Positions 10,291 to 26,469 of a stretch of 64,000 nucleotides of DNA are shown here, piece after piece; within the stretch, counting starts at the first letter, position 1; each line of letters opens with the position of its first letter. The stretch lies in the NCBI RefSeq assembly GCF_902497775.2, contig NZ_OZ024668.1, positions 2,751,826 through 2,815,825 of the forward strand, written 5' to 3'. The position numbers were made by a program, and so were the translations under genes. A model generated the notes under the pieces. That model had not been told where the DNA came from. It did no database searches and worked only from the letters and a program-made list of their open reading frames with translations. Source of the DNA: Pseudomonas fluorescens (GTDB taxonomy: Bacteria; Pseudomonadota; Gammaproteobacteria; Pseudomonadales; Pseudomonadaceae).

Positions 10291-10677
10291 TCATTTGCCC
10301 GACAGCCGCCCATACATCCCCCGCTCATAGCCACCGGCCTTTACCGGTGGCCGCTGCCCTCGCTCGGCAAGGCTGCCCAGCAATTGCTGAACGGCGGCCT
10401 GGTCGGTCGTTTGCAGCAGGCGAAAACTGCTGAGCAATTGCTCTTCTTCGGCGTTCAGGCTGCTGTGCTCAACCGGGGTATGCATCCCGCTCAACACATA
10501 CAACGCATCGACCCCACGCGCCGCCACCGCCGCCAGGTAGTCGGCCTTGGGGGTACGCTCACCGCTTTCATACTTGCCCTGGGCGTTGGGTTCTACCCCA
10601 CCGATGTCGCCAAAGGCACGCTGGGTCAGGCCCAGGCGTTCTCTTTCTTCCCTGATACGCGAACCGATTCCGTTCAT
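10291..10677 (-). CDS. XRE-family helix-turn-helix regulator
   Basis: Encodes 128 residues. The N-terminal third is a Cro/C1-type helix-turn-helix (GSRIREERERLGLTQRAFGD ... KYESGERTPKADYLAA). The rest has no catalytic residues and probably serves oligomerisation. It lies directly upstream of gacA on the same strand, with 99 bases between, and divergent to the alginate operon across a 658-base gap. The C2-like N-terminus suggests phage ancestry, but no other phage gene is nearby. A perfect 10-bp palindrome (CATCCGGATG, 10700-10709) just upstream could be its own operator. Target genes unknown. Confidence 0.85.
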   Translation of the reverse strand: MNGIGSRIREERERLGLTQRAFGDIGGVEPNAQGKYESGERTPKADYLAAVAARGVDALYVLSGMHTPVEHSSLNAEEEQLLSSFRLLQTTDQAAVQQLLGSLAERGQRPPVKAGGYERGMYGRLSGK

Positions 10678-10981: not shown

Positions 10982-11075
10982 CGTCAAAAAAACCATGAAA
11001 ATCGCCAGATGCAGCCGAGGCAACGGCTTTCTGGCGTCATTTTCACGACAATATGCAGATATCGGTTTTTTGACG
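10982..11075. repeat. 94-nt nested inverted repeat (possible long hairpin)
   Basis: Three arm pairs share one axis. Outer: CGTCAAAAAAACC (10982-10994) with GGTTTTTTGACG (11064-11075). Middle: TGAAAATCGCCAG (10996-11008) with CTGGCGTCATTTTCA (11031-11045), which has a 2-base insertion. Inner: AGCCG (11013-11017) with CGGCT (11024-11028), with loop AGGCAA. As RNA this gives a long, interrupted hairpin about 260 bases before algD. It could be a leader structure, attenuator, small RNA or protein-binding element. Confidence 0.75.
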
Positions 11076-11088
11076 CCGAACTAACCAC

Positions 11089-11150
11089 AAACTTTAACTC
11101 ATTGATTTATAACGGTTTTTAAACTTTAACAGAACGAATTTAAACTTTAT
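11089..11150 (+). repeat. three phased AAACTTTA direct repeats
   Basis: AAACTTTA occurs at 11089, 11121 and 11142. The spacings of 32 and 21 bases are close to three and two helical turns, so the copies lie on one face of the DNA. They sit 190-250 bases upstream of algD in AT-rich sequence and could be sites for an activator or bending protein. Confidence 0.45.
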
Positions 11151-11335
11151 CCAACTCAGAGTTAGAGACAGCTTGCCGAAGTTAAAAAAACTCCCTTAGG
11201 ATGTAATAAGACAACGAAAAACGCTTGCATCGCCTCCTTTTAGCGCGCTGCTTTTTCTTGCGCGTCTGCCGCGTCGACTATGCCGTTTAACTGAGTATCT
11301 CGGTCAGCCTTTGCTGCACCTTGGGAGAGGGAACT

Positions 11336-12643
11336 ATGAATATCAGTATCTTTGGATTGGGTTATGTGGGCGCTGTCTGTGCCGCCTGTTTGTCCGCCCG
11401 TGGGCACCAGGTGCTGGGCGTGGATATCTCGCCGGCCAAGATCGACATGATCAACCAGGGCAAGTCGCCCATTGTCGAGCCGGGCCTTGAGCAATTGCTG
11501 CTCGATGGTGTGCGTCATGGCCGCCTGCGCGGCACCACGGATGTCCAGGCCGCGGTACTGGCCACCGAAATGTCGCTGCTGTGCGTCGGCACCCCAAGCA
11601 AGAAAAACGGCGACCTGGACCTGGTCTACATGGAAGCGGTTTGCCGCGAAATCGGCACCGCCATGCGTGACAAGGCCAGCCGCCATACCGTTGTGGTGCG
11701 CAGTACCGTGCTGCCCGGCACCGCCAAGAACGTAGTGATCCCGATCCTCGAGAAGTACTCCGGCAAGCGCGCCGGCATCGACTTCGGCGTGGCGGTCAAC
11801 CCCGAGTTCCTGCGTGAAAGCACCGCGATCCAGGACTACGACTTCCCGGCCATGACTGTGATCGGCGAGCTGGACTCGCAATCGGGCGACCTGCTGCAGT
11901 CGCTGTACCAGGGCCTGGATGCCCCGGTGATCCGCAAGTCGATCGAAGTCGCCGAGATGATCAAGTACACCTGCAACGTCTGGCACGCCACCAAGGTCAG
12001 TTTTGCCAATGAAATCGGCAACATTGCCAAGGCGTCCGGGGTCGATGGCCGCGAAGTGATGGATGTGGTCTGCCAGGACTACAAGCTCAACCTGTCGCGC
12101 TACTACCTGCGCCCAGGCTTCGCCTTCGGCGGCTCGTGCCTGCCCAAGGACGTGCGCGCCCTCACCTACCGCGCCGGCCAGCTGGACGTCGAGCACCCGC
12201 TGCTGGCCTCGATCATGGCCAGTAACCGCAACCAGGTGAAAAACGCCTTCGACCTGATCACCCGCCAGGACAAGCGCCGCATCGGCCTGCTGGGCCTGAG
12301 CTTCAAGGCCGGCAGCGACGACTTGCGCGAAAGCCCGCTGGTGGAACTGGCGGAAATGCTCATCGGCAAAGGCTACGACCTCACCATCTACGACGCCAAC
12401 GTCGAGTACGCCCGAGTGTTCGGCGCCAACCGCGAGTACATCGAGTCGAAGATCCCTCATGTTTCGTCGCTGCTGTGCAACGACCTGCAGCAGGTGATCC
12501 GCGACGCCGAGGTGGTGGTACTGGGCAACAACGATGACCGTTTCGCTCAAGCCCTGGATGCCAGCGACGGCAAGCAGATCATCGACCTGGTCGGCTTCAT
12601 GGCCCACGGCAGCGATGCCCAGCGTGAAGGTATCTGCTGGTAA
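11336..12643 (+). CDS. algD: GDP-mannose 6-dehydrogenase
   Basis: Encodes 435 residues. AlgD oxidises GDP-mannose to GDP-mannuronic acid with NAD, the committed step of alginate synthesis, in the cytoplasm. The N-terminal Rossmann motif is FGLGYVGAVCAACL, and the catalytic Cys is residue 268 in GGSCLPKD, the same number as in P. aeruginosa. The C-terminal UDP/GDP-binding domain follows. The ATG at 11336 has GAGAGG just upstream; a longer frame from 11321 is less likely. It is the first gene of an 11-gene operon, with a 162-base gap before alg8. Confidence 0.96.
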   Translation: MNISIFGLGYVGAVCAACLSARGHQVLGVDISPAKIDMINQGKSPIVEPGLEQLLLDGVRHGRLRGTTDVQAAVLATEMSLLCVGTPSKKNGDLDLVYMEAVCREIGTAMRDKASRHTVVVRSTVLPGTAKNVVIPILEKYSGKRAGIDFGVAVNPEFLRESTAIQDYDFPAMTVIGELDSQSGDLLQSLYQGLDAPVIRKSIEVAEMIKYTCNVWHATKVSFANEIGNIAKASGVDGREVMDVVCQDYKLNLSRYYLRPGFAFGGSCLPKDVRALTYRAGQLDVEHPLLASIMASNRNQVKNAFDLITRQDKRRIGLLGLSFKAGSDDLRESPLVELAEMLIGKGYDLTIYDANVEYARVFGANREYIESKIPHVSSLLCNDLQQVIRDAEVVVLGNNDDRFAQALDASDGKQIIDLVGFMAHGSDAQREGICW

Positions 12644-12805
12644 GGCCCCAATACTCCATTCAGAGAGTACCCGGCGATTCACCCAGGCACCCCGCCTGAC
12701 TGACTGCTCACCTGCCTCCTGCCCGGCCGACCCTGTCTTGGCCAGGGGCGAAAAGTGCGCATGTCATTCAGCCGGGCGTGGCCCGAACACAGGAGCAACG
12801 ACTAC

Positions 12806-14338
12806 ATGGAACGACAGCAACAGCCGCCCTCGGGCCGGCCGGACTACCTGCAGGCAGGCGCGCGTTTTTGCGCCTGGGCCTGCCTGTTCGGCCTGATCGC
12901 GCTGGCGTCGGAGATGGTCGCGCCGCAGTACCTGGACCCTGCGCACCACAAGTTCATCTTCATCATCGGTGCCCTGGGCATGTGGCGCTATGGCAATGCC
13001 ATCGTCCACTACCTGCGCGGCATGTACTTCCTGCACTGGAAGTTCCCACGCATGCGCAAGGCGGTCGAGCGCATGGGCGATGCGGCACTGCCGGCGCACA
13101 TGTTCATGGTGGTGACCAGTTTTCGCATCCCCACCCACACCACCTTCAAGGTCTACCAGTCGGTGTTCCAGGAGGTGCAGCGGCTGAAGGTGCCGTGCAC
13201 GGTGATCGCCTCGATCGTCGAAAAGGGCGATGAGCAGTTCATCAAGGAGATCATGCGCAACGAGGTCAAGGACCGCGACGACATCAGGCTGGTGATCGTC
13301 CGCGCCCGCGGCACCGGCAAGCGTGATGGCCTGGCCCATGCCTTCCGCGCCCTGTCGCGGCAGATGCCGCTGGAGGACTCGGTGGTCGGTGTGGTCGACG
13401 GCGACACCATGATGCTGCCCGGCTGCGTCGAGCGCGCGGTCAAGCTGTTTGCCTACCTGCCCAACGTCGGCGGCCTGACCACCAACGAGTTCTGCGAAGT
13501 CGAAGGCAGCAACCTGATGCGCCAGTGGCACTCGATGCGCTTCGTCCAGCGGCACATCAACATGTGCTCGATGGCCTTGTCGCAGCGGGTGCTGACCCTG
13601 ACCGGGCGGCTGTCGTTCTTTCGCGCCAGTGTCATGACCGACCCAGACTTCATCCGCGACGTCGAAGCGGATTTTCTCCAGCACTGGCGCCTGGGGCGCT
13701 TTCAGTTCCTCACCGGTGACGACAAGTCGTCGTGGCTGAGCCTGATGCGCGCTGGCTGGGACACCTTCTACGTGCCCGACAGCAACACCCTGACCGTCGA
13801 GCATCCGCCAGACAACAGCTTCTGGCGCGCCACCCGCCAGTTGATGTTTCGCTGGTACGGCAACTCGCTACGCCAGAACTTCCGTGCCACCGCCCTGCTC
13901 GGCCGCGCCCGCCTGGGCCTGTTCACCCTGTACGTGTTGCTCGACCAGCGTGTGTCGATGTGGACCTGCCTGATGGGCCTGACCGCCTCGGTGGTCGCCG
14001 GCATCGTGTTCGGCATCCAGTACCTGCTGGTGTACCTGTTCTGGGTGCTGCTGTCGCGCAGCATCGTCACCGTGCTGTTTCTGTTCGCCGGCCACCCGGT
14101 CAGCCCGGTGTACCCGTTCGTTCTTTATTACAACCAGATCATCGGCTCGCTGATGAAAGTCTACGCCCTGTTCCACATGGACCAGCAGAGCTGGACCCGG
14201 CAAAAAACCACGTTAAGCAACGGCGCCGTCAACTTCGATGCCGCCCTGAACCGCTGGTCCTCCAAGGCGATGCTGTTTTCATCCATCGCGATTTTCTTCG
14301 GGGTCATCTCGGTTCTTCTCGAACTCACGCAACGTTAA
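12806..14338 (+). CDS. alg8: alginate polymerase, glycosyltransferase family 2
   Basis: Encodes 510 residues. Alg8 is the inner-membrane synthase that polymerises mannuronate from GDP-mannuronic acid, working with Alg44. N-terminal membrane helices lie at about residues 20-65, then a GT2 domain with VVDGDTM (DxD), TNEFCEVEG, TGDDKSSW and FRWYGN (QxxRW-like), then C-terminal helices. I chose ATG 12806 because AGGAG lies 10 bases before it; a GTG at 12755 would add 17 unsupported residues. The alg44 start is 15 bases downstream. Confidence 0.93.
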   Translation: MERQQQPPSGRPDYLQAGARFCAWACLFGLIALASEMVAPQYLDPAHHKFIFIIGALGMWRYGNAIVHYLRGMYFLHWKFPRMRKAVERMGDAALPAHMFMVVTSFRIPTHTTFKVYQSVFQEVQRLKVPCTVIASIVEKGDEQFIKEIMRNEVKDRDDIRLVIVRARGTGKRDGLAHAFRALSRQMPLEDSVVGVVDGDTMMLPGCVERAVKLFAYLPNVGGLTTNEFCEVEGSNLMRQWHSMRFVQRHINMCSMALSQRVLTLTGRLSFFRASVMTDPDFIRDVEADFLQHWRLGRFQFLTGDDKSSWLSLMRAGWDTFYVPDSNTLTVEHPPDNSFWRATRQLMFRWYGNSLRQNFRATALLGRARLGLFTLYVLLDQRVSMWTCLMGLTASVVAGIVFGIQYLLVYLFWVLLSRSIVTVLFLFAGHPVSPVYPFVLYYNQIIGSLMKVYALFHMDQQSWTRQKTTLSNGAVNFDAALNRWSSKAMLFSSIAIFFGVISVLLELTQR

Positions 14339-14353
14339 GGAAAGGCGCCTGCC

Positions 14354-15505
14354 ATGAGTAGCTCAAGTACACCCGCAGTACCGGCCAACGTAGTCCACGA
14401 AGCCATCGACGAACGCCAGTACGTGCGCACCAAACTCAACGCCCGGGTCAAGCTCAGCGCGGCCGGCCAGCCGCCGTTCGACAGCACCCTGCAGGACATC
14501 TCCCTGGGCGGCATCGGCCTGGTTCATCCCGAGCCGCTGAAGATCGGCAGCCTGTACCACGCCTCGATCCAGTTGCGCCTGAACCAGGTCGACCTGAACA
14601 TCGACAGCCAGATCAAAATCGTCTCCCAGCGCGGCCAGGAAGTCGGCGCCCAGTTCGTCGAGCTCGACGCGCAAAAGCGCGACATCCTGCGCTACATCAT
14701 CAGCGCCTACCTGTCGGGCGAGATCGCCGACATCAATGGCCTGTTCAACGTGATGCAGCGGGAAAACTACATCAAGGAACGCAAGCACAAGTACGCCAGT
14801 GCGCGCAGCTCCGGCGAGCGTCTCAAGGCCACTGTCGGCACCCTGCTGTATGCCGCTGCCGGCATCGCCGCGCTGGGCTTTGTCGCCTACAAGTGCTACC
14901 TGCTGTTCTTCCGCATCCCGGCAGTGCAGGCCCAGGTCTCGGCCAACGCCCAGGTCATCAGCATGCCCGACAACGGCTATGTGAAGTTCCTCCTCGCGCC
15001 TGGGCAAACCGAGGTCAAGGCCGGCACGCCAGTGGCGAGCATTTCCACTCAGCTGGCCACCAGCTTCACCAGCCCGGCCGACATGAAGGCGGTGGCCGAC
15101 CTCTCGCCCGGCGACCTGCAGACCCTGCTTGGGCGCGCCACCATCGAGACGGTGATCAACAGCCCGTGCGACTGCGAAGTCTACTTCCCCAGCAAGCCAC
15201 TGGACGGCTATGGCTACAAGCAGGCGCCACTGGTGCATTTGCTGCCCAAGGATGAAGGCCTGTTCGTCACCGCCAACGTGCCGTTCGACAAGCTCACCGA
15301 CATCGGCCGGGTGACCTCGGTGGACCTTAAGGTGTTCGGCCTGGATGAAACCTTCAGCGGCAAGGTCATCGACTCGCGCGTCGATGAGGCCAACAAGAAC
15401 CTGGCCCTGACCATCGCCCCCGACAGCCCGCTGCCGCGCGCCGCGTACCAGAAGCCGGTAGCGGTGGACCTGTACCTGGGCCTGCCGTTCACGGCTTCGC
15501 GCTAA
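14354..15505 (+). CDS. alg44: c-di-GMP-binding alginate copolymerase subunit
   Basis: Encodes 383 residues. Alg44 activates Alg8 on binding c-di-GMP and links the membrane synthase to periplasmic parts. The N-terminal PilZ domain has both binding motifs, RQYVR (R21 and R25, the RxxxR pattern) and DISLGG (D48-x-S-x-x-G). One membrane helix lies at about residues 155-178, then a periplasmic HlyD/MdsC-like part. Intact PilZ residues indicate that the polymer remains under c-di-GMP control. ATG 14354 follows a GGAAAGG sequence. Confidence 0.93.
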   Translation: MSSSSTPAVPANVVHEAIDERQYVRTKLNARVKLSAAGQPPFDSTLQDISLGGIGLVHPEPLKIGSLYHASIQLRLNQVDLNIDSQIKIVSQRGQEVGAQFVELDAQKRDILRYIISAYLSGEIADINGLFNVMQRENYIKERKHKYASARSSGERLKATVGTLLYAAAGIAALGFVAYKCYLLFFRIPAVQAQVSANAQVISMPDNGYVKFLLAPGQTEVKAGTPVASISTQLATSFTSPADMKAVADLSPGDLQTLLGRATIETVINSPCDCEVYFPSKPLDGYGYKQAPLVHLLPKDEGLFVTANVPFDKLTDIGRVTSVDLKVFGLDETFSGKVIDSRVDEANKNLALTIAPDSPLPRAAYQKPVAVDLYLGLPFTASR

Positions 15506-15529
15506 GCCCCACCAAGGAAGGAATAGGCA

Positions 15530-16978
15530 ATGAATGCGAAGACGCCCTCCCGCCTGTTGCTGGCAAGCATCGGTCTTGCCTGCGCCGGCAGCGCCCTGGC
15601 CGGGCAAAGCCTGGAGCAGATCCGCTACGCGCTGTACAAAGATCCCAGTGCCAACGTCAGTGCCGACCTGCGCGCCCTGGCCGAGCGCGGAGACCTGGCG
15701 TCCAAGCTGTTGCTCGGTGATGTGCTAGCCAACAGCGATGGCGCCAGCCGCGCAGAAATCATCGCCCTGTACAAAGAGGCGTTTGCCGATGGCCGTGGCC
15801 AGGTACCGGCACTGGCCTCGCTGGCGCGCCTGCTGGACCGCACCCCGAGCCTGCAAAAGGGCCAGCAGCAGTGGATGGCCCAGGCCCTGACGCGCTACCC
15901 GGCGACCCTCGACCCGCGCAATGCCAGCACCACCCTGGAAGTGTTCCTGGTTTACCCGCAACGGGTCTCCACCGAGCAAGCGGCGCAGTTACTGGCGCTG
16001 TACCAGCAGTCGTGCCTGCTCAATTGCCGCCCCGAGCTGTACCAGGCGGTATTGGCCGAGCGTCAGGGTGACCGCGCGGGCGCCGAGCGTTTCTACCAGC
16101 AGGCGGTGCGCGTGGATGTGCGGGCGATCGATCGCTACTACCGCTTCCTCGGCGACGATCAGGACCGCGCCTTCCCGGCCTTTGCCCGCAGCCTCGAAGC
16201 GCTGCGCCCGGCCCTGGCGGTAGAGATCGTGCACCGCATCGGCTCGTTGCTCGACAGCATCAACAGCGTGCAGCGCGCCGAGCAGGAGGCCGACCGCTAT
16301 GAGCGCCAGGCCAGCGCCATGGGCCCGGCCCGGGTGCAGGATGCCGCGCAACTGGCCGCCGACAAGCAGCGCAGCGATGCCCTGGACCTGGCCCGCACCG
16401 AAGCCCACCGCTGGCGCGACAACGCCGTCGAACGCGGGTTTGTGCCGGCGATGGTGTCCAAGGCCAACTACATGATTTCCAACCCCACCGAGCACAACGC
16501 CGAAGAGACCCAGGCGCTGATCGACCAGGTCCAGGCCCGCGAAGCAACCCGGGCCAAGGCGCTGCAGGCCTCGTTCTACATGGTCAACAACTGGCTGACC
16601 CTGGACCCGGACAAGGCCCGCGCACTGATCGACGAGCTGCTCGCCAGCCGTTACCCCGACGCCGAACTGCTGCTGGCCGAGTACTACAGCAAGGGCGTGG
16701 CCGACCAGCCCGACCAGGACAAGGCCCTGGAGATTTTCCAGGCCCAGGCCCGGGCCGGCTCCACCGCCGCCTGGTACCGCATGGCCACCCTGCATGCTTA
16801 CGGGCGCGCCATCTGCCACGACCCGGTCAAGGCCTACACCTATGCCCAGGTAGCCCTGGCGCTGGGTGAGAACGGTGCCCGCAGCCTGGTCAAACGCCTG
16901 GAAAAGACCCTGAAAAAGGATGACATCGAGCGTGCCCTGGCGGCGCGTACCGATCTGTTGAAGGAGGCAACCCTGTGA
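15530..16978 (+). CDS. algK: alginate outer-membrane scaffold, TPR/Sel1 protein
   Basis: Encodes 482 residues. AlgK is a periplasmic TPR protein that helps place the AlgE porin and binds AlgX. Helical Sel1/TPR-like repeats run through most of the length (for example LLLAEYYSKGVADQPDQDKA and YRMATLHAYGRA). The N-terminus is a signal peptide. AlgK is normally a lipoprotein; here the candidate lipobox IGLAC (Cys18) is weak, with Gly at -3 and Arg8 close by, so ordinary cleavage after ALA is also possible. AAGGAAGGAA precedes the ATG. The stop overlaps the algE start. Confidence 0.88.
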   Translation: MNAKTPSRLLLASIGLACAGSALAGQSLEQIRYALYKDPSANVSADLRALAERGDLASKLLLGDVLANSDGASRAEIIALYKEAFADGRGQVPALASLARLLDRTPSLQKGQQQWMAQALTRYPATLDPRNASTTLEVFLVYPQRVSTEQAAQLLALYQQSCLLNCRPELYQAVLAERQGDRAGAERFYQQAVRVDVRAIDRYYRFLGDDQDRAFPAFARSLEALRPALAVEIVHRIGSLLDSINSVQRAEQEADRYERQASAMGPARVQDAAQLAADKQRSDALDLARTEAHRWRDNAVERGFVPAMVSKANYMISNPTEHNAEETQALIDQVQAREATRAKALQASFYMVNNWLTLDPDKARALIDELLASRYPDAELLLAEYYSKGVADQPDQDKALEIFQAQARAGSTAAWYRMATLHAYGRAICHDPVKAYTYAQVALALGENGARSLVKRLEKTLKKDDIERALAARTDLLKEATL

Positions 16979-18426
16979 AAGCCCACCACACCCTGTTCGG
17001 CGCCCTGCTGGCCCTGGCACCGCTGTACCCGGCGCAAGCCCTGGAAGAAGTCACCGGCCCCGAGGCCGACAGCAGCGAGCCGGTGCGGGTCGCTGGCGCC
17101 AGCGAACCGGTGATCACCTCGGAATTCTTCAACAAGCTCACCGTGCAGACCGGCTACGGCCCGGAAAACTCCGAAGTCGGCCGCAGCCGCGAGATGTTCT
17201 ACAGCCTGCGCTACGAGCCATCGTTTGCCTGGTACTCACCGGAAAAACGCTGGGCCAAGTGGATGGTCTATGGCCGTGTGTGGCTGAACTACGACTCCAG
17301 CGAGTCGGCCAGCGTGCAGAACGAAAACGCCAACAACCTCGACCGTGAACAGCCCAAAGGCTGGTACGCCGAGCTGCGCGAGCTGTATGTGAAGCGCAAC
17401 CTGCTTGGCGACGACCCGCGCTTCTCGCTGTCGGCCGGGCGCCAGCGCTATTTCGACGACTACGGCATCTGGTGGGACGACAGCATCGAGTCGCTGCGTT
17501 TCAACTACAACGACACCTTCTCCCGTGGCTTCGTCGCCGTGGCGCAGAAGTTCTACAACTACAACAGCGACGTCAACCGCCTGGCCGACAGCGAGGAGCG
17601 CACCACCTACCTGATGGGCGAATACGCCTACCGCTGGAGCGAGCACAACTGGGCCGGCGTACGCCTGCTGCACGAGAACGACCACAGCGGCCACGACGCC
17701 GAAGACCGCTACGACTTCAAGGGCATGCGCTACGGGCTGTTCTTCAAGGCTGACGACCTGGACGTGACGCCGCTGTTCAGCGACTACCACCTGGAGCTCG
17801 CGGGCCTGGATGGCAAGGTCGACAACACCGACGTCAACGGCGTCACCAGCACCGGCCACAACGCCAGCGGCTGGGCGGCCCTGGGTGAAATCGGCAAGCG
17901 ATTCCACGACTTGCCGTGGACGCCACGGGTAGCCCTGCGCGGTGGCCTGACCGACAAACCGAGCAACGACAACGACGGCTTTCGCCTGAACGCCATCCAG
18001 TCCGACCGCATCACCCGCCAGGGCAGCTACAGCACGCGCCTGGCCAGCGCCTTCGTCAGCCTCGATCTGCGCAACCTCAGTTACTACGGCATCGCCCTGG
18101 AAACCAACCCGACGCCGCGCAGCGCCCTGGATTTTCGCCTGACCGAACTCAAGCTGCGCGATGCCAACGGCACCCTGCCGATCCGCCTCGAAGGCGACCA
18201 GCGCAGCGAGCGCAACCGCGCCATTGCCCAGGGCACCCACGGCGGCGGCAAGGATGTCGGGCAGATGCTCGACCTCAATTACTACTGGAAGATGTTTCCG
18301 GTGGCCATCGACGGCAAGCACCTGGACGTCAACGCCCTGGTCAGCGCCAGCTACCTCAACGCCGGCAATGCCCTGGACAGTGGTGATGACTACCAGCTGA
18401 CCTTCGGCGTCGTGGTCAGTTACTAA
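16975..18426 (+). CDS. algE: alginate export outer-membrane porin
   Basis: Encodes 483 residues. The GTG at 16975 overlaps the algK stop, and a signal peptide ends near PAQA. The mature protein is an amphipathic beta-barrel with alternating aromatic strands that ends VVVSY, and shares the porin-family stretch SAGRQRYFDDYGIWWDDS with the known AlgE pattern (GRQR ... W-D). It would export the polymer across the outer membrane. Judged from memory of the P. aeruginosa protein, it is clearly divergent from that AlgE. The assignment rests on family signature, length (490 in P. aeruginosa) and position after algK. Confidence 0.88.
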   Translation: MKAHHTLFGALLALAPLYPAQALEEVTGPEADSSEPVRVAGASEPVITSEFFNKLTVQTGYGPENSEVGRSREMFYSLRYEPSFAWYSPEKRWAKWMVYGRVWLNYDSSESASVQNENANNLDREQPKGWYAELRELYVKRNLLGDDPRFSLSAGRQRYFDDYGIWWDDSIESLRFNYNDTFSRGFVAVAQKFYNYNSDVNRLADSEERTTYLMGEYAYRWSEHNWAGVRLLHENDHSGHDAEDRYDFKGMRYGLFFKADDLDVTPLFSDYHLELAGLDGKVDNTDVNGVTSTGHNASGWAALGEIGKRFHDLPWTPRVALRGGLTDKPSNDNDGFRLNAIQSDRITRQGSYSTRLASAFVSLDLRNLSYYGIALETNPTPRSALDFRLTELKLRDANGTLPIRLEGDQRSERNRAIAQGTHGGGKDVGQMLDLNYYWKMFPVAIDGKHLDVNALVSASYLNAGNALDSGDDYQLTFGVVVSY

Positions 18427-18440
18427 GGACGGAACCCGAG

Positions 18441-19868
18441 ATGATCTTCGCCTCCAACGTCTTCCTGTTCCTTTACCTGCCGCTGTTCCTGGCCGTGTAC
18501 TTCCTCGCCCGGGCGCAGTGGCGCTCGACGGTGATCGTCGCCGCCAGCTACATTTTCTACGCCTGGTGGCGGCCGGACTTTCTCCTGCTGTTCGTGGCCA
18601 TCACCTATTGGAACTACTGGTTCGGCCTGCGTATCAAGGCGCGCCTGGATGCCGGCGACAAGCGCTGGGCGTTCCGCCTGCTGTGGATCGGCATCATCGG
18701 CAACCTGTCGACCCTGGGCTACTTCAAGTACGCCAACTTCGGCGCCGACGTGCTGGCCGCCCTGCTCGCGCCGCTGGGCATCAACACCTTCACCCTGGAG
18801 ACGATCTTCCTGCCGCTGGGCATCTCCTTCTATGTGTTCCATGCCCTGAGCTACATCGTCGACATCTACCGCAAGGACGCCACGCCGACCAACAACTTCA
18901 TCGACTTCGCCGCCTTCGTCGCGCTGTTCCCGCACCTGGTGGCAGGGCCCATCCTGCGCTACAGCCAGCTGGCGCCGCAGCTGCGCCAGCGTACCCACTC
19001 GCTGGAGCTGTTTTCCCTGGGCGTGTGCCGCTTCATGCTCGGCTTCATCATGAAGGTACTGATCGCCGACCAACTGGCGCCGATCAACGTGCTGTTCATC
19101 AGCGAAGGCACCTTGCAGTTGAGCGATGCCTGGTTCGGCCTGGTGGTCTCGACCCTGCAGCTGTACTTCGACTTCGCCGGCTACAGCCACATGGCCCTGG
19201 GCCTGGCGTTGATGATGGGGTTCCGCTTTCCGGAAAACTTCAACCAGCCCTACGTGTCGCAGAGCATCACCGAGTTCTGGGCGCGCTGGCACATGACCCT
19301 GGCGCACTTTCTGCGCGACTACGTGTACATGCCGCTGGTGCGCAAGCGCATCGCCGGGGCGCTGCCGGCGCTGGTCTACACCATGCTGCTGTCGGGCCTG
19401 TGGCATGGCGCCAGCTTCGCCTTTATCTGCTGGGGGCTGTTCTTCGGGTTCGGCATGGTCATCGAGCGCAAATTCAACCTGGCGACCAAGATCACCACGC
19501 CCTACCACCTGGGCCGCAACCTGCGCACCTTCGTGCTGATCATCCTGAGCATGCCGCTGTTCTTCACCAACGACCTGCGCCACAGCATCGACATCTACCA
19601 GGCGCTGTTCGGCCTCAACGGCCTCGGCTCGCTGGACCTGTACGTCCTTGGCGCCTCGAAGATGGCCATGTCGTTCGCCGCCATTGCCCTGTGCTGGCTG
19701 GTGCTGGCTGGCAGCAACAACGTGCGGTTCTACGCCGGCAACAAGGAGCAGTACTTCATGCGCCATGTCGGCGGCCTCAAGGCCCTGCTGCTGTGGGCAG
19801 GGTTTGCCCTGGCGCTGAGCAGCCTGGCGGCGCATTCGTTCTCGCCCTTTCTGTACTTTCAGTTCTAG
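18441..19868 (+). CDS. algI: alginate O-acetyltransferase, MBOAT family
   Basis: Encodes 475 residues of a multi-pass inner-membrane protein that passes acetyl groups to the periplasm for alginate O-acetylation. The MBOAT catalytic His is residue 322 in SGLWHGASF, the same number as in P. aeruginosa. Other family text includes LPLGISFYVFHALSYIVDIY and FFRWRAR-type WARWHMTLAHFLRDYVY. The gene follows algE by 14 bases. In the usual Pseudomonas order algG, algX and algL lie between algE and algI; here they come after algF. Confidence 0.96.
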   Translation: MIFASNVFLFLYLPLFLAVYFLARAQWRSTVIVAASYIFYAWWRPDFLLLFVAITYWNYWFGLRIKARLDAGDKRWAFRLLWIGIIGNLSTLGYFKYANFGADVLAALLAPLGINTFTLETIFLPLGISFYVFHALSYIVDIYRKDATPTNNFIDFAAFVALFPHLVAGPILRYSQLAPQLRQRTHSLELFSLGVCRFMLGFIMKVLIADQLAPINVLFISEGTLQLSDAWFGLVVSTLQLYFDFAGYSHMALGLALMMGFRFPENFNQPYVSQSITEFWARWHMTLAHFLRDYVYMPLVRKRIAGALPALVYTMLLSGLWHGASFAFICWGLFFGFGMVIERKFNLATKITTPYHLGRNLRTFVLIILSMPLFFTNDLRHSIDIYQALFGLNGLGSLDLYVLGASKMAMSFAAIALCWLVLAGSNNVRFYAGNKEQYFMRHVGGLKALLLWAGFALALSSLAAHSFSPFLYFQF

Positions 19869-19877
19869 GAGACCGCC

Positions 19878-20972
19878 ATGTACCCGGTCATGAATTCGGC
19901 CAGCAAGGTCAACGGCATTGCCTTCGGCGTCCTGCTGGCGGGCATGTTCGTCTACTCGCTGCCACCGGTGTTCAGTTTTGCCCGCAACCAGACCGACGCC
20001 TGGAACCTGTTCGTCGACGGCAAGCTGCTGCGCAAGTTCGAGCAAGTCTACGAGAAGCGCTTTTTCCTGCGTGAGCCGTCGGTCGAGCTGTGGGCCAACG
20101 CCCAGTACCGGCTGTTCGACGAAGGCACCAAGGGCGTGGTGCTGGGTAAGGACGGCTGGCTTTACACCAACCAGGAGTACCGCGTACCGAACAACCTTGA
20201 GGCCAACCTCGACGGCCAGCTCAAACAGATCGCCGAGATCGAGCAACGGCTCAAGGCCCACAACAAGCGCCTGATCGTGCTGCCGCTGCCGATGAAAGTC
20301 GACGTGTATGCCGCCCACACCCAGCGCGCGGTCGACCCGCGGGCGATCAGCCTGTACGAGCGCTTCGTCGAGCGTCTGCAGGCGCAGGACATTGCGGTGA
20401 CCCCGCTGCGTTCGGCATTCCTAGCCAACCTCGCCGGCCCCGAGCTGTTCCTCAAGTCGGACACCCACTGGAGCCCGGAAGGTGCGCGCCTGAGCGCCTA
20501 CGAACTGGCCCACCAGCGCCCGGAGTTGCTCGGTGACGAGCGCTACTTGTCGCACAAGGTCGCCGACAAGACGGTCAAGGGCGACCTGATGAACTACATC
20601 CAGTTCAACCACGCGCAGCTGGCGCCGCAGTTCGGCCCCAGCCAGATCGCCCTGTACGAAACCCTCAAGGCCGAACAGAGCGCCAGCGACCTGTTCGCCA
20701 GCGAAAACCAGAGCCTGATGCTGGTGGGCACCAGCTACAGCAAGATCGATGACTGGAACTTCGTCGGCTTCCTCAAGGAGGCACTCAACCGCGACCTGCT
20801 GAGCGTGTCGGTGGAAGCGCGCGGGCCGTTCGAGGCCATGAGCCAGTTCCTGGCCAGCGACCAGTTGAGCAACCCCGAGATCGACACCGTGGTCTGGGAG
20901 TTCCCCCTGCGCACCCTGCTCGCCCACCGCCTCGGCTCCCTGAGCCGCCCCGGCCAGACCCAACATTTCTAA
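19878..20972 (+). CDS. algJ: alginate O-acetyltransferase, SGNH-like
   Basis: Encodes 364 residues. AlgJ works with AlgI and AlgF in periplasmic acetylation. One N-terminal membrane segment (VNGIAFGVLLAGMFVYSLPP) is followed by a domain with the SGNH-like catalytic set: D195 and H197 in KSDTHW, and Ser in GTSYS (residues 284-288). AGGAG lies 7 bases before the ATG. It is 9 bases after algI. Confidence 0.94.
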   Translation: MYPVMNSASKVNGIAFGVLLAGMFVYSLPPVFSFARNQTDAWNLFVDGKLLRKFEQVYEKRFFLREPSVELWANAQYRLFDEGTKGVVLGKDGWLYTNQEYRVPNNLEANLDGQLKQIAEIEQRLKAHNKRLIVLPLPMKVDVYAAHTQRAVDPRAISLYERFVERLQAQDIAVTPLRSAFLANLAGPELFLKSDTHWSPEGARLSAYELAHQRPELLGDERYLSHKVADKTVKGDLMNYIQFNHAQLAPQFGPSQIALYETLKAEQSASDLFASENQSLMLVGTSYSKIDDWNFVGFLKEALNRDLLSVSVEARGPFEAMSQFLASDQLSNPEIDTVVWEFPLRTLLAHRLGSLSRPGQTQHF

Positions 20973-20982
20973 GGAGAGACTG

Positions 20983-21627
20983 ATGAATACCGCACTGCAA
21001 CGCCTGCTCGCCACTTCCGCCCTGCTGCTGGGCAGCGCCGCCGTTCATGCCGCCGAAGGCAACGCCGACCTGTACGACGCCGTGGCCCCGGCCGATTCGG
21101 CTTTCGTCCGGGTGCTCAATCTGTCGAGCAGCAACATCGACGTGACCCTGAGCGGCAAGATCAACCCGCAGCGGGTCGCCGCCGGCCAGCTCAGCGGCTA
21201 CCGCTTCACCCCGGCCGGCGCGCACAAGATCGCCGTTGGTGGCACCGCCATCGAACCGCAGCTCAAGGCCAACGCCGCCAGCACCGTGGTCTTTGATGGC
21301 AGCAAGCTGACCCTGATCGCCGACAAGTACGTCAACGAACCGAAGAAAGCCCAGGTCGCCTTCTACAACCTGACCCCGGCCCAGGCGGCGTTGAAAACCG
21401 TCGACGGCAAGCACGTGATCGTCGACCCGTTGGGCAAGGACCAGACCGGCAGCCGCATGGTCAACGAGATCAAGATCGGCTTTGCCGCCTACGTCCAGGA
21501 GCAGAACGTGGCCAGGTTCGATGAACTGTTCCTGAAAAAAGGCCGCTCCTACAGCTACGTGCTGCTGCCTAAGGGCGCCGGCTACCAGAGCATGAGCCTG
21601 GCCAACAGCATCGACCCGAGCGAGTGA
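20983..21627 (+). CDS. algF: alginate O-acetylation periplasmic protein
   Basis: Encodes 214 residues, close to the 216 of P. aeruginosa. A signal peptide ends after AVHA, and the remainder is beta-rich (YDAVAPADSAFVRVLNLSS, VTLSGKINPQ, GYRFTPAGAHKIAVGG), as expected for AlgF. It supports O-acetylation with AlgI and AlgJ. AAGGAG lies 6 bases before the ATG. Here algF is followed by algX, not algA. Confidence 0.93.
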   Translation: MNTALQRLLATSALLLGSAAVHAAEGNADLYDAVAPADSAFVRVLNLSSSNIDVTLSGKINPQRVAAGQLSGYRFTPAGAHKIAVGGTAIEPQLKANAASTVVFDGSKLTLIADKYVNEPKKAQVAFYNLTPAQAALKTVDGKHVIVDPLGKDQTGSRMVNEIKIGFAAYVQEQNVARFDELFLKKGRSYSYVLLPKGAGYQSMSLANSIDPSE

Positions 21628-21629
21628 TC

Positions 21630-23033
21630 ATGAAGCGCATTCTTCCCCTTGGCCTGGCGGCCCTGCTGGGCCCGCTGCTGAGCACCCCGGGCGTGGCCGC
21701 AGAGCCCGCCAAGGCCACCTGCACCAGCCTTGAATGCATGGTTTGCCCGGGCCTGAGCAACCCGCAGAACTACGCCGAAGGGCGTATGAAGCTGATGCGC
21801 GAGATCGTCCCGGCCAAGGACCGCTGGCTGTTCCGCTCGGCGGTCGACCTGACCAACGATTTCGGCATCCCGGCGCCCATGCGTGCGGAGTTCGCGCGTT
21901 TGATGGCCGCCTTTCGCCAGCAGGGCATCCATGTAGCCATGGCGGTGCAACCCACCCGTGGCCTGATGCACCGCGACAAACTCTATGCCGACAAGCTGCA
22001 TGGCTTCGACTTTGCCCGCGCCAGCGGCAACCTGGACAGCTACCTGCAGCAACTGCGCGCCGGTGGCGCGGTGGTGCCGCCCTTGATGCAACTGGTGCAC
22101 ACTCCGCCCAAGGGCGAGTTCTTCTTTCGCCGTGACCACCACTGGACCCCGGCCGGCGCCGAAGCCACCGCGCGACTGGTCGCCGAAGAGGTACGCCGCC
22201 AGCCGTTTTATGCCCAGCTGAGCAAAAAGCGCTACCGCACCGAACCCGGCGTCATGGTGCCCAAGGACGGCACCATGAACCTGGCGCTGAGTTATATCTG
22301 CGGCAACAATTATGGTTTCCAGTATGTACGCGGCTACCAGACCATCCCCGAAGCCGACGGCGCCGATGCGCTGTTCGACGACGCGCCGGACCCAGAGGTG
22401 ATCCTGGTCGGCGACAGTAACGCCGCCGCCCGTGAAGACGAGAGCAAGCAGTTCAACTTCGACGGCTACCTCAAGCAGTACCTGGAAGTCGACATCCTCA
22501 ACTACGCCCTGCCCGGCGTCGGCCAGGACGGCTCGCTGCTCGAATACCTGCTGTCGGAGAACTACAAGCCCAAGGCGCCACCGAAGCTGATCATCTGGGA
22601 GCTGCCGGCCAACTACCAACTGGAGTCCGAGCAGATGTACCGCCAGTTGATCCCGGCGATCAAGGGCGGTTGCCCGGTGTCGACCGAGGTCCTGGCCAAC
22701 CGGGTGCAGCGCCCGCCGCTGCGGGTCAACGAGCGCATCGAGCTGCTCAGCAATGCCGGCGAGGCGCGCAAGAACCTCAGCAACGGCCAGGGCTTTCTCG
22801 ACATCCGTATCAGCGACAAGAACGTCAAGGACTTCTACGTGATCGTCTATTACGACAACGGTGCCCGCGACAAAGTCTGGTTCCGCCGCGAGGCGGTGGT
22901 CACCGGCGGCCAGTACTACCTGGAGCTGAGCCGGGCCAAGGAGTTCGCCGGGGCCAACCTGCTGTCGGTGTTCATGGAGCCGACCAAGCCTGGCACTGCC
23001 GCCACTCAAGTGGAAACCCGCGTATGCCTGTAA
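21630..23033 (+). CDS. algX: alginate acetyltransferase, SGNH-type
   Basis: Encodes 467 residues. AlgX binds alginate and performs the final O-acetyl transfer in the periplasm. After a signal peptide and a Cys-rich start, the SGNH-like domain shows RRDHHW (D169, H171) and the nucleophile Ser263 in VGDSNA. The known P. aeruginosa enzyme has GTSHS at that place, so this copy has a GDSN block. A C-terminal carbohydrate-binding module follows. I chose ATG 21630, two bases after the algF stop; GTG 21624 is possible. It overlaps algL by 10 bases. Confidence 0.9.
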   Translation: MKRILPLGLAALLGPLLSTPGVAAEPAKATCTSLECMVCPGLSNPQNYAEGRMKLMREIVPAKDRWLFRSAVDLTNDFGIPAPMRAEFARLMAAFRQQGIHVAMAVQPTRGLMHRDKLYADKLHGFDFARASGNLDSYLQQLRAGGAVVPPLMQLVHTPPKGEFFFRRDHHWTPAGAEATARLVAEEVRRQPFYAQLSKKRYRTEPGVMVPKDGTMNLALSYICGNNYGFQYVRGYQTIPEADGADALFDDAPDPEVILVGDSNAAAREDESKQFNFDGYLKQYLEVDILNYALPGVGQDGSLLEYLLSENYKPKAPPKLIIWELPANYQLESEQMYRQLIPAIKGGCPVSTEVLANRVQRPPLRVNERIELLSNAGEARKNLSNGQGFLDIRISDKNVKDFYVIVYYDNGARDKVWFRREAVVTGGQYYLELSRAKEFAGANLLSVFMEPTKPGTAATQVETRVCL

Positions 23034-24139
23034 AAACCTGGGCAGCACTGGGCCTGGGCCTGTGCGCCAGCCTGCAGTTGGGCAGCAGCCTGGCCGCCAC
23101 CTCGATCTGGCCGCCGCGGGCCACCGCGCAGTCGGCGATGATCGCCGACTACCGGACCTTGAGCTGCAGCAAGGAAGTACCGCCGCCCTACACCGGCAGC
23201 TTGCAGATGCAGAGCAAGTACGACCAGCGCGACGCCAGCAAGTCGACCCTGCGCAGCACCCCGGATGCCAGCAGCGAGCAGATCGACAAGCAGGTCAAGC
23301 CGTTCATCGGCGGGCTGATCTACGCCAGCAAGCGCTTCCAGCGGGCCAAGAATCCGCAGGAAGCGAACATGGCCCTGGCCTGTCAGGACCAGTGGCTGGA
23401 GCGCTGGGCCCAGGCCGGTGCGCTGCTCAACCCCGACGCCAGCAGCACCGGCATGGCCGCACGTAAATGGGCAGTGGCGGCCATGGCCTCGACCCTGCTG
23501 ATGACCCAGGCCGCCAGCGACGCCAAGCTGCAATTGTCGCCGGCGCAAAAGGCCTGGTTCAGTCAACTGGGCGAGCGCATCATCGCCGAGTACCAGCCGC
23601 GCCGTACCCCGGGCTTTGCCTGGTTCAACAACCATGACTACTGGGCGGCCTGGGCCGTGGCGGCGACCGGCATGCTGGTGCAGCGCGACGATTTCATCCA
23701 GTGGGCCGACGGCAACCTGCGCCGTGGCCTGCAGCAGGCGGTCAAATCCGCCGATGGCAGCTACGCCTACCTGCCGCTGGAAGTGGCGCGCAGCAAGCTG
23801 GCCGCCACCTACAGCCAGTACGCCCTGGTGCCGCTGGTGCTCCTGGCCGAATCGGCGCGGGCCAATGGCCTGGCGTGGAGCAGCGACGATCAGCAGACCC
23901 TGGAACGGCTGGCAAACTTCGCCGCGCGCAGCATCCTCGACCCCGACGGCCTGCCCGAGCTCAAGGGCAAGTCACAGAGCGACGTCGCCCCGTACAAACT
24001 GGCCTGGCTGATCCCCTTCCTGCAGCGCGCCCCGGGCAACCGCCTGGCCCGCCAGCTGTATGACAGCGAGGATGGCGAGGTCGACAACTACAGCCAGATC
24101 GGCGGCCCGCTCAAGCCGTTCTATCCCAAACTGCCGTAA
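23024..24139 (+). CDS. algL: poly(beta-D-mannuronate) lyase
   Basis: Encodes 371 residues of a periplasmic polysaccharide lyase family 5 enzyme, which degrades polymer that misses export. A signal peptide ends near SLAA. The alpha/alpha-barrel catalytic residues of this family are present: N203 and H204 in FNNHDYWAAW, and Arg and Tyr seven residues apart in EVARSKLAATYSQYAL. The gene starts inside algX, with a 10-base overlap. Since it appears active, the polymer should contain mannuronate linkages. Confidence 0.93.
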   Translation: MPVKTWAALGLGLCASLQLGSSLAATSIWPPRATAQSAMIADYRTLSCSKEVPPPYTGSLQMQSKYDQRDASKSTLRSTPDASSEQIDKQVKPFIGGLIYASKRFQRAKNPQEANMALACQDQWLERWAQAGALLNPDASSTGMAARKWAVAAMASTLLMTQAASDAKLQLSPAQKAWFSQLGERIIAEYQPRRTPGFAWFNNHDYWAAWAVAATGMLVQRDDFIQWADGNLRRGLQQAVKSADGSYAYLPLEVARSKLAATYSQYALVPLVLLAESARANGLAWSSDDQQTLERLANFAARSILDPDGLPELKGKSQSDVAPYKLAWLIPFLQRAPGNRLARQLYDSEDGEVDNYSQIGGPLKPFYPKLP

Positions 24140-24156
24140 CCCAAGGACGAACCGTC

Positions 24157-25761
24157 ATGGCCATGCTTGCCCGCCCGCTTACCCTTTCCTGCCTTGCGCT
24201 GCTGTTCAGCGCCATGGCCCAGGCTGCCAGCCAGAGCTTGGCGCTGCAGCAATCGCTGAGCGCGGTGAACAGCGCCGAACACCAGCGCGACCTGCAACAG
24301 TTGCAGCAACAGGTCAGCCAGGCCGTGCAACTGCAGGTCAGCGAACGTGCGCGCCCGGCTGGCCGCGCCAGCGTCAGCCTGCAACCGATGTTCTCGTCCC
24401 AGGCTGGCAGCTGGCCGTTCGAGCCGTTCGTCAACAACGGCCTGTTCCGCGCCATCGCCGGCTACCAGGCGCATCACCCGCAAGCGGTGCTGGTGCGCGG
24501 TGGCAGCATCACGCTCGCGCAGTTGCACGATGCCCTGAGCGACCCGAAGATCATCAAGCGCTACAAGGACGGCTACCTGCTCAGCTACCCGCTGGTGATC
24601 GCCAGCGACGGCGGCCTGCTGCTCGAAGGCACCAGCCTGTACCTGTACAGCTACTCCGGCACGGCGCTGATCAACCAGGGCTGGCTGGGCTTGAACCAGT
24701 CGCGCCTGGAGAGCGTCGCCGGCGACAAAACCGCCAGCACCGACCGCGCCTGGCGCCCGTTCGTGGTGGCCTGGGCCGGCAGCCACACCCAGGTGCTGGG
24801 CTCGACCCTCAACCGCCTGGGCTACAACGCCAACCTTTCGCGCGGCCTGACCACCGCCCTGAGCAGCCAGCAGGCAGCGTCCACCCGCCCGGCCACAGTG
24901 ATCATCCGCGACAGCCAGTTCAATGAGCTGTCCAGCGCGGTGGAGCTGCAACACAGCCAGGCGCAGATCGACAACAGCCAGTTCGGCCAGTCCCAGCAGT
25001 ACGCCATCGACGTGCGTGACAGCCAGGTGACAGTGCGCAACAACCAGCTGCGCGGCATCGACAACAACAGCGGCATCCGCCTGCGCGGCCAGACCCGCGC
25101 ACGCATCGAGCACAACCTGATCCTCGGCGCGCACAAGGCGGCCATCGAAGTCAGCGAGCAACAGGGTGCGCTGCTGCTGACCGGCAACCTGATCGGCGAC
25201 AGCCGTGGCAACGGCATCCAGCTGCGCAACCTGGCGCCGACGCCTGCCGCGCCGCTGTTGATCAGCGACAACCTGATCGGCAACAGCCAGGGCAGCGCAG
25301 TGGATGCCAGCGAGGTCGGCGCCGTCAGCCTGATCGGCAACCGCATCGGCAACAGCCCGGAATACGCCGTCAGCCTGCGCAATGCCGCGCCGCTGGCCGG
25401 CCCCCTGACCTTGAGCGGCAACACCCTGGGCAAGGTCGGCAAGGCGGTGGTACGGGTCGAGGGTTTGCAGCAGGTGGTGCTGGGGCCGAACACCTTCGAG
25501 GGCAAGCCGATCCAGCAGAACTTGCTGATCGGTGACTTGTTGCCGGTGCAGAGCCTGCTGCTCGATGCCACCCAGCGCCGGGGTTGCGTGGTGCGGGTCG
25601 AGCTAGGCGATCGCCCGCTGCAGGCGCAAAAAGCACTCGTCTTCGCCGACACAGACAAAGCCCTCGCGCAGGTACAGGAACCGTGCCGGGTTGCTCTTGA
25701 ACACCATCAGGCGCAGCAGCGGCAATTGCCGTTGGCGGGTCCAGTCGGCCAGTTGCGCTAA
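24157..25761 (+). CDS. algG: AlgG-like parallel beta-helix protein, catalytic DPHD motif absent
   Basis: Encodes 534 residues. The N-terminal half matches AlgG (AVLVRGGSITLAQLHDAL, RPFVVAWAGSHTQVLGSTLN), followed by a right-handed beta-helix of repeated N-x-I/L-G rungs. AlgG normally epimerises mannuronate to guluronate using a DPHD motif. The aligned place here reads YAIDVRDS (D285-V286-R287-D288), so the catalytic His is missing. It may be a structural AlgG that only shields or guides polymer. The last about 50 residues overlap the convergent GNAT gene by 159 bases and look like antisense read-through. Confidence 0.8.
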   Translation: MAMLARPLTLSCLALLFSAMAQAASQSLALQQSLSAVNSAEHQRDLQQLQQQVSQAVQLQVSERARPAGRASVSLQPMFSSQAGSWPFEPFVNNGLFRAIAGYQAHHPQAVLVRGGSITLAQLHDALSDPKIIKRYKDGYLLSYPLVIASDGGLLLEGTSLYLYSYSGTALINQGWLGLNQSRLESVAGDKTASTDRAWRPFVVAWAGSHTQVLGSTLNRLGYNANLSRGLTTALSSQQAASTRPATVIIRDSQFNELSSAVELQHSQAQIDNSQFGQSQQYAIDVRDSQVTVRNNQLRGIDNNSGIRLRGQTRARIEHNLILGAHKAAIEVSEQQGALLLTGNLIGDSRGNGIQLRNLAPTPAAPLLISDNLIGNSQGSAVDASEVGAVSLIGNRIGNSPEYAVSLRNAAPLAGPLTLSGNTLGKVGKAVVRVEGLQQVVLGPNTFEGKPIQQNLLIGDLLPVQSLLLDATQRRGCVVRVELGDRPLQAQKALVFADTDKALAQVQEPCRVALEHHQAQQRQLPLAGPVGQLR

Positions 25762-26034
25762 CACCCAGCTGCCGACGCCACGGCCGCGAAAGCCTTCGAG
25801 CAGGTGCAGTTCACGGATGAACAGGGCCTGGCGGTCCTGGCTGAGGCTGAAGTAGCCCAGCGGTTGCTCGGCTTCGCTGATCAGCCACTGCTCGCGCCAC
25901 TCCCAGGCCTGGTCGAAGGCTTCTTCCTGCCAGAGCAGATCGAACTCGCGGTAATACGCCAGCATGGCCCGGCGCGTGAGGTCGCGGGCGAAGGTGCGGT
26001 ACTGGTCGGTGGCGGGGGTCAGTTGCACAGTCAT
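25603..26034 (-). CDS. GNAT-family N-acetyltransferase
   Basis: Encodes 143 residues with the full GNAT fold. The acetyl-CoA loop is FRGRGVGSWVL (R-x-x-G-x-G/A), and the C-terminal NPARFLYLREGFVCVGED is typical. Substrate unknown. Its 3' end lies under the 3' end of algG on the other strand, a 159-base convergent overlap. It occupies the place where algA stands in the usual alginate operon. Confidence 0.85.
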   Translation of the reverse strand: MTVQLTPATDQYRTFARDLTRRAMLAYYREFDLLWQEEAFDQAWEWREQWLISEAEQPLGYFSLSQDRQALFIRELHLLEGFRGRGVGSWVLAQLADWTRQRQLPLLRLMVFKSNPARFLYLREGFVCVGEDECFLRLQRAIA

Positions 26035-26070: not shown

Positions 26071-26469
26071 TCAAGGTTTGAATTCGTCGGCATAACACAC
26101 CGGCGAACTCCCCGGCCCCTGGCGCTCCAACTCATCCTCAAGCCACTGCGCCAGTACCGTGGCATTGTTGTGCGCGGTGTCCTTGCCGGCATACAGCAAG
26201 GTCACATCGCCCTGCCCGGCCATGCCCAGTAGCTTCCACCAATGCACAGGCTGGGCCGTCAGCTCCTGGCGATACTGCTCGGCAAAGCCGGCAAAATCCA
26301 TCTCTCCCTTGTGAAAAGCCTGACGCAACGCCGTTGAAGGCGCCACCTGCGGCAGCCACAAAGCCTGCAGCTGGTCCTTGCGCTTGTTGCGCGGCCACAG
26401 CCGGTCGACCAGCACCCGCTGGCCATCGGCGGCGTCCTGCGGGTCATAAACGCGTTTGCAGCGGATCAT
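26071..26469 (-). CDS. DUF488 family protein
   Basis: Encodes 132 residues. It has the DUF488 opening with VYDPQDAADGQRVLVDRLWPR and the later LLYAGKDTAHNNATVLAQWL. The family is common in bacteria, soluble and of unknown function. It is 36 bases upstream of the GNAT gene on the same strand and may be co-transcribed with it. Confidence 0.88.
   Translation of the reverse strand: MIRCKRVYDPQDAADGQRVLVDRLWPRNKRKDQLQALWLPQVAPSTALRQAFHKGEMDFAGFAEQYRQELTAQPVHWWKLLGMAGQGDVTLLYAGKDTAHNNATVLAQWLEDELERQGPGSSPVCYADEFKP

Follow-up and report, generated by a model that had tools for sequence, protein, structure and literature searches.

An alginate-like cluster of eleven genes

The stretch of DNA analysed here (the window, 64,000 nucleotides, bases 2751826-2815825 of a complete chromosome of 5,966,768 bases) carries eleven open genes, all on the plus strand at 11336-25761, in the order D-8-44-K-E-I-J-F-X-L-G (Table 1). 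The order, strand and coordinates given by a previous, sequence-only reading of this DNA were correct, as was the absence of algA from the cluster: none lies among the eleven genes, and the next gene, on the minus strand, encodes a GNAT protein. The genes are designated epm, after the published cluster with which they are compared below. Pfam matches in the cluster comprised PilZ, Alginate_exp, MBOAT, ALGX (in both EpmJ and EpmX), AlgF, CBM_26, Alginate_lyase and Beta_helix. EpmK scored 61.8 bits with the AlgK model NF038194, the cut-off of which is 700, and EpmE matched AlgE structures at E about 1e-15, in an alignment confined to residues 93-241.

Table 1. Features of the epm cluster and its flanks (window coordinates; identities are to the canonical proteins of the same genome).
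Feature	Coordinates	Strand	Remarks
XRE-type regulator gene	10291-10677	-	Separates the cluster from the gacA-like gene; divergent from epmD
Putative promoter region	11020..11335	+	Blocks kept in relatives; alignment inspected by eye
epmD (algD-like), GDP-mannose 6-dehydrogenase	11336..12643	+	76.6% to AlgD
epm8 (alg8-like), GT2 polymerase	12755..14338	+	PF13641/PF13632; 53.4% to Alg8; own clade in tree
epm44 (alg44-like), PilZ co-polymerase	14354..15505	+	PilZ match
epmK (algK-like), TPR lipoprotein	15530..16978	+	NF038194 (AlgK), E 4.8e-17; 28.3% to AlgK
epmE (algE-like), outer-membrane export porin	16975..18426	+	PF13372
epmI (algI-like), MBOAT acyltransferase	18441..19868	+	PF03062
epmJ (algJ-like), SGNH acetylesterase-like	19878..20972	+	PF16822
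epmF (algF-like), acetylation protein	20983..21627	+	PF11182
epmX (algX-like), O-acetyltransferase with CBM	21624..23033	+	PF16822 and PF16824; 4knc, E 6.1e-72
epmL (algL-like), PL5 lyase	23024..24139	+	PF05426; ATG at 23024
epmG (algG-like), beta-helix without DPHD motif	24157..25761	+	
GNAT gene	25603-26034	-	Next gene after the cluster; overlaps the end of epmG

The conserved blocks preceding epmD were TTTTTTGACGYC, and CTTGC followed some 17-18 bases downstream by TAGGAT; L022, though present in the alignment, was set aside in reading it, its computed start lying outside the contig. A strict sigma-70 promoter scan of the region upstream of epmD gave no match. Of the 30 gacA-linked epm loci, 28 have a match to the XRE-type gene, a possible candidate regulator, as does L066. 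Two terminator-like sites were found 3' of the cluster, against a mean of 0.9 (sd 1.0) in shuffled sequences, and were given no weight; an Rfam scan of the whole window at the gathering threshold yielded one tRNA. The last 50 residues of EpmG (25609-25761) are encoded antisense to the GNAT gene; this tail is also present in L101-L103, whereas other copies from the P. putida group stop at about residue 484-502. Further on, at 26071-26469 on the minus strand, lies a gene for a DUF488 protein of the 'inactive N3' subclade (Pfam).

A canonical alginate operon on the same chromosome

The search for a second alg operon and an algA that the sequence-only reading had proposed found both outside the cluster. 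A complete canonical operon in the textbook order (L011) occupies about 398-415 kb on the minus strand, and its AlgK, AlgG, AlgL and AlgA-type enzyme pass NCBIfam cut-offs, that passed by AlgL being the cut-off of one mannuronate-specific model. AlgA-type genes elsewhere in the genome number two, encoding the canonical AlgA and a second AlgA-type protein (44%). The cluster's proteins are 76.6% (D), 53.4% (8), 47.4% (I), 34.6% (X), 29.7% (J), 29.6% (44), 29.5% (L), 29.4% (F), 28.3% (K), 27.6% (E) and 24.2% (G) identical to their canonical counterparts in this genome, in keeping with the divergence that had been remarked on for AlgE, AlgX and AlgG. With a canonical operon on the same chromosome and the two Alg8 proteins in separate clades, the proposal of a second, distinct exopolysaccharide cluster stands.

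The AlgG catalytic motif is absent from EpmG

The accessible part of the review PMC4444821 gives DPHD as the AlgG motif, with its histidine as the probable base and Tyr314 holding a water that may be the donor; the carboxylate-neutralising residue is named there only as 'an arginine'. The window's EpmG reads YAIDVRD at the motif site. DPHD occurs in none of the 63 epm loci compared (62 distinct) and in none of five Alcanivorax relatives, versus all 30 canonical AlgG loci, these being the best 30 matches from 57 genomes searched (35 with a match) and leaning to close relatives. Two more distant loci (L166 and L167) also carry it. The count of 63 leaves out L175 and L176, whose motif is as in L174, and includes an identical pair (L172 and L206); L130, a repeat of L129, was set aside. 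EpmG is thus not the normal AlgG that, according to the sequence-only reading, would have spoken for an ordinary alginate locus: besides lacking DPHD, it scores 44.8 bits with the AlgG model NF038177, the cut-off being 700 and the score of the genome's own AlgG 1008.7.

The residue at the histidine position of EpmG is arginine in 23 loci, glutamine in 12, glycine in 7, serine and histidine in 6 each, asparagine in 3, leucine and alanine in 2 each, and tyrosine and isoleucine in 1 each. A loss of the catalytic histidine from the whole clade was therefore rejected as a description, the residue being present in 6 of 63 loci (L126, L172, L173, L201, L202 and L206; DLHD in four, DLHN and DLHG in the others). 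These six form one clade, in a tree with several long branches and an uncertain root. G183 and G398 are the sources of L172 and L173; together with G001 and G459 they make up the four genomes out of 47 in which the epm-type Alg8 is the sole Alg8 among the matches listed. The sole AlgG-like match in each of the four is the weak one of EpmG, which reads DLHD in G183 and G398, and DLQD in G001 and G459, where there is no canonical AlgG.

Other active-site positions are largely kept. The equivalent of Asp317 is present in 63/63 loci, that of R308 in 62/63 and that of Tyr314 in 60/63, and the residue aligned with Arg345, which we take to be the carboxylate-neutralising residue of AlgG, is arginine in 42/63. 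On sequence grounds, these retained equivalents may indicate that the chemistry of EpmG is altered, not lost. EpmG might then still be an enzyme, with an alternative base acting alongside the retained Tyr, Asp and Arg or with some other change made to the chain, and the polymer would be epimerised or otherwise altered. The near-invariance of the D317, Y314 and R308 equivalents, the histidine in the clade of six and a predicted fold that is a right-handed beta-helix closest to AlgG all speak for such an activity; but ten different residues at the position of the base, a two-residue gap after it in 63/63 loci and five Alcanivorax AlgG-like relatives that are also without the Asp and the Tyr weigh against it, and we regard it as unlikely. 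The literature searched, with most subscription journals outside that scope, contained no description of the loss of DPHD in epm clusters.

Residues of the remaining activities are conserved

Kept residues were counted over 73 loci (L021-L093), with reference residues taken from the accessible parts of PMC8829089 and PMC4148444. EpmD matched P. aeruginosa GMD (1mfz) at E 6.3e-225, compared with 3.5e-73 for the best UDP-glucose dehydrogenase, and retains GGSCLPKD, the Cys of which is present in all 68 loci with a match; judged by these matches, it clearly belongs to the GDP-mannose type. Epm44, aligned to 4xrn and 4rt0, has both RQYVR and DISLGG, and the five PilZ residues counted are kept in 73/73 loci. 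The two His of EpmI are kept in 70/70 loci covered (3 not covered), the Asp/His/Ser triad of EpmJ in 70/70 and the triad of EpmX in 70/70 covered (1 not covered). For PilZ, EpmI and EpmD, the positions counted were those of known motifs that are visible in the alignments. As regards EpmL, the equivalents of K66, H202, W205, R249 and Y256 are present in all 70 loci in which a lyase was found, and that of Y259 in 63 of them, the other seven having Phe. The cluster thus has the residues of a canonical-type GDP-mannose dehydrogenase, PilZ protein, PL5 lyase and acetylation machinery.

The only model cut-off that EpmL passes is that of NF001469 'polysaccharide lyase' (409.3 bits, cut-off 366), unlike the genome's own AlgL, which is best matched by mannuronate-specific lyase models and passes the cut-off of one. 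This difference would fit a polymer that is not based on mannuronate, with some other uronic acid as the substrate of Epm8, a choice mirrored in the lyase subfamily. Such a polymer is, however, very improbable given a dehydrogenase of GDP-mannose type and the retention in EpmL of the lyase residues that act on mannuronate. The near-total relaxation of the epimerase motif in a cluster that keeps its other activities is, in our view, the part worth following.

Distribution and gene order of epm clusters

The window's Alg8 was used as query against genome contigs, and the best 80 of 567 relatives were kept. Among these best 80 of 567, the gene order over the part covered was that of epm in 73 loci, canonical in 5 and other in 2 (L068 and L100); some loci are truncated where their contigs stop, and most of G falls outside the 10 kb flank. 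In the Alg8 tree that had been suggested (91 rows, quick method, midpoint root), 73 epm-type and 7 Alcanivorax-type rows stood apart from 11 canonical rows with an SH-aLRT of 100, the window's Alg8 lying in the clade separate from the canonical one. Besides Pseudomonas, the epm clade takes in rows from Marinobacter, Gilvimarinus and Shewanella. The arrangement is common to the clade and is not, as had been supposed, a rearrangement particular to this genome. Reshuffling of an ordinary alginate operon in this strain, still making ordinary alginate, would explain the shared gene types (all except algA) and the 76.6% identity of EpmD to AlgD, but can hardly be maintained with a full canonical operon in the genome and with order and motif loss common to a clade of Pseudomonas, Marinobacter, Gilvimarinus and Shewanella rows; strain-level rearrangement of the canonical operon is itself ruled out by the presence of that operon and by the separate Alg8 clade.

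Among 398 sampled Pseudomonas genomes, 361 had an Alg8 match of any kind among the matches listed, and 47 had an epm-type Alg8 (76-100% identity; others among the matches listed were at most 56%). The region 5001-26500 of the window was compared with P. wadenswilerensis (L021; 94.9% identity over 17,465 aligned bases) and P. donghuensis HYS (L032; 94.5% over 17,431).

The synteny comparison at gacA showed that, in 30 of the 80 loci, which names and tree assign to the P. putida group (one bears a Pantoea label), the cluster adjoins uvrC and a gacA-like regulator gene and has no algA. Thirteen further loci of the 80 are without algA, the uvrC/gacA neighbourhood not being in view. In 25 of the 80 related loci, and also in L068, D and 8 flank an algA homologue; this rules out the earlier idea that a GNAT gene had replaced algA at the end of the cluster. 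On our own informal reading of the comparison, algA was lost from the position between D and 8 in this lineage.

Several individual loci are of separate note. L048 is recorded as Pantoea sp. Cy-639, and its cluster adjoins this Pseudomonas's uvrC (90%) and gacA-like gene (96%); it is probably a mislabelled Pseudomonas. P. mangrovi TC11 (L064 and L068) carries two Alg8 genes of the epm type, together with two EpmG matches, and in L068 an X-L-G end directly precedes a D-A-8 start, which would fit a tandem pair of epm clusters. The Oleiphilaceae metagenome locus L100 has the order D-8-44-K-E-G-I-J-F-X, and the AlgG of the same genome (L167) has DPHD. G046 (L168) and G058 (L170), both with two canonical-like Alg8 genes, have a further alginate-type cluster, D-8-44-K-E-G-X-L-A, whose order is canonical and in which I-J-F had no match over that stretch.

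A proposed route to O-acetylated mannuronan

Taken together, the comparisons suggest that the cluster probably encodes a second synthase-dependent machine, of the epm type, which would make O-acetylated mannuronan containing little if any guluronate and in which EpmG would act as a non-epimerising guide. Once expressed, EpmD would convert GDP-mannose to GDP-mannuronate, the GDP-mannose being supplied by the canonical AlgA or the second AlgA-type protein (44%), both encoded elsewhere. Epm8 would polymerise GDP-mannuronate under the control of c-di-GMP through Epm44, being active when c-di-GMP is high. In the periplasm, EpmI, EpmJ, EpmF and EpmX would O-acetylate the polymer, EpmK and EpmE would export it and EpmL would clear stray polymer. 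EpmG, with the fold of AlgG and without its catalytic motif, would serve as a periplasmic guide and most likely not epimerise; it is because the fold is kept and the motif is not that little or no guluronate is expected in the product. Mutants without AlgG yield oligomers instead of polymer, according to the accessible part of PMC4444821, which fits a guide role separate from catalysis. Binding between AlgK and AlgG was looked for and none was found, according to the accessible part of PMC9734138.

Epimerisation in trans by the canonical AlgG is possible, because a second Alg8 is present, among the matches listed, in 43 of the 47 epm genomes and this genome has a canonical AlgG. A PF12708 search of this genome for a secreted epimerase, other types of which lie outside the model, gave no match. 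Our confidence in a guluronate-poor mannuronan is slightly lowered by the fit of AlgL, and not EpmL, to mannuronate-specific models and by the EpmG histidine in two of the four genomes whose sole Alg8 is of the epm type.

More tentatively, and with considerable doubt, we propose that epm clusters are natural makers of guluronate-free acetylated mannuronan, a deep clade (represented in 47 of the 398 Pseudomonas genomes and in other genera) having given up C5-epimerisation while retaining polymerisation, acetylation, lyase, export and, as a guide, the epimerase fold. As of 2015, no mannuronan-producing organism had been identified in nature and mannuronan was otherwise known from laboratory AlgG mutants, according to the accessible part of the review PMC4444821. 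Should the motif loss prove as meaningful as it looks, these bacteria would be natural producers of mannuronan and would allow the guiding and catalytic roles of AlgG to be separated.

Comparison with known systems

Compared with the canonical operon (L011, and those of P. aeruginosa and P. putida), the epm cluster has all eleven gene types in common, algA excepted, and keeps the catalytic residues of the lyase, the acetylation proteins, the PilZ protein and the dehydrogenase. It differs from the canonical order D-8-44-K-E-G-X-L-I-J-F-A in having I-J-F ahead of X-L-G and no algA, its AlgG-like protein is without DPHD, and 8 of its 11 proteins are 24-35% identical to the canonical ones. Annotation calls for caution: two alginate-type operons can occur in a genome of this group, and an algG label in the second one need not mean an epimerase. 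The accessible part of the biofilm paper on P. donghuensis P482 (PMC11312691) describes alg mutants BV82_4694-4700, which by their numbering look to belong to the canonical operon, and does not name epm.

The epm cluster of P. alkylphenolia is a published system (Lee et al. 2014, Appl Microbiol Biotechnol 98:4137, PMID 24493568, as cited in the accessible part of PMC5890197); the suggestion that the order might already be described in this species group holds in part, as far as a published cluster goes. Two P. alkylphenolica genomes (xwS2 and PSB00016) have exactly two Alg8 matches each, a canonical one (54%) and one of this cluster's type (92-93%); the cluster holding the latter, the sole Alg8 besides the canonical one, has the same gene order as the window's. 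With a canonical Alg8 and an Alg8 of the window's type in each of these genomes, the window's cluster, though from another species, almost certainly belongs to the published epm type; the identification is strong but indirect, the published locus being that of strain KL28 and the genomes compared being xwS2 and PSB00016. The published cluster is said to have 11 co-oriented genes resembling those for alginate, the number also present in the window. A substituted polymannuronic acid has reportedly been suggested as its product, which, like epmJ and epmG, is said to be needed for aerial structures. The window's cluster is a real second cluster of a published type and not private to this genome; as far as the literature searched shows, the type has been thinly followed up since its publication.

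The Alcanivorax clusters (L087-L091 and L093) share the order D-8-44-K-E-I-J-F-X-L and have no algA between D and 8. Their Alg8 proteins are 58-61% identical to the window's and form a separate clade. In Alcanivorax G463, the plus strand encodes Alg8 and the opposite strand, about 9.5 kb on, the AlgG-like protein. In all five genomes checked, the AlgG-like protein is without DPHD, as in epm.
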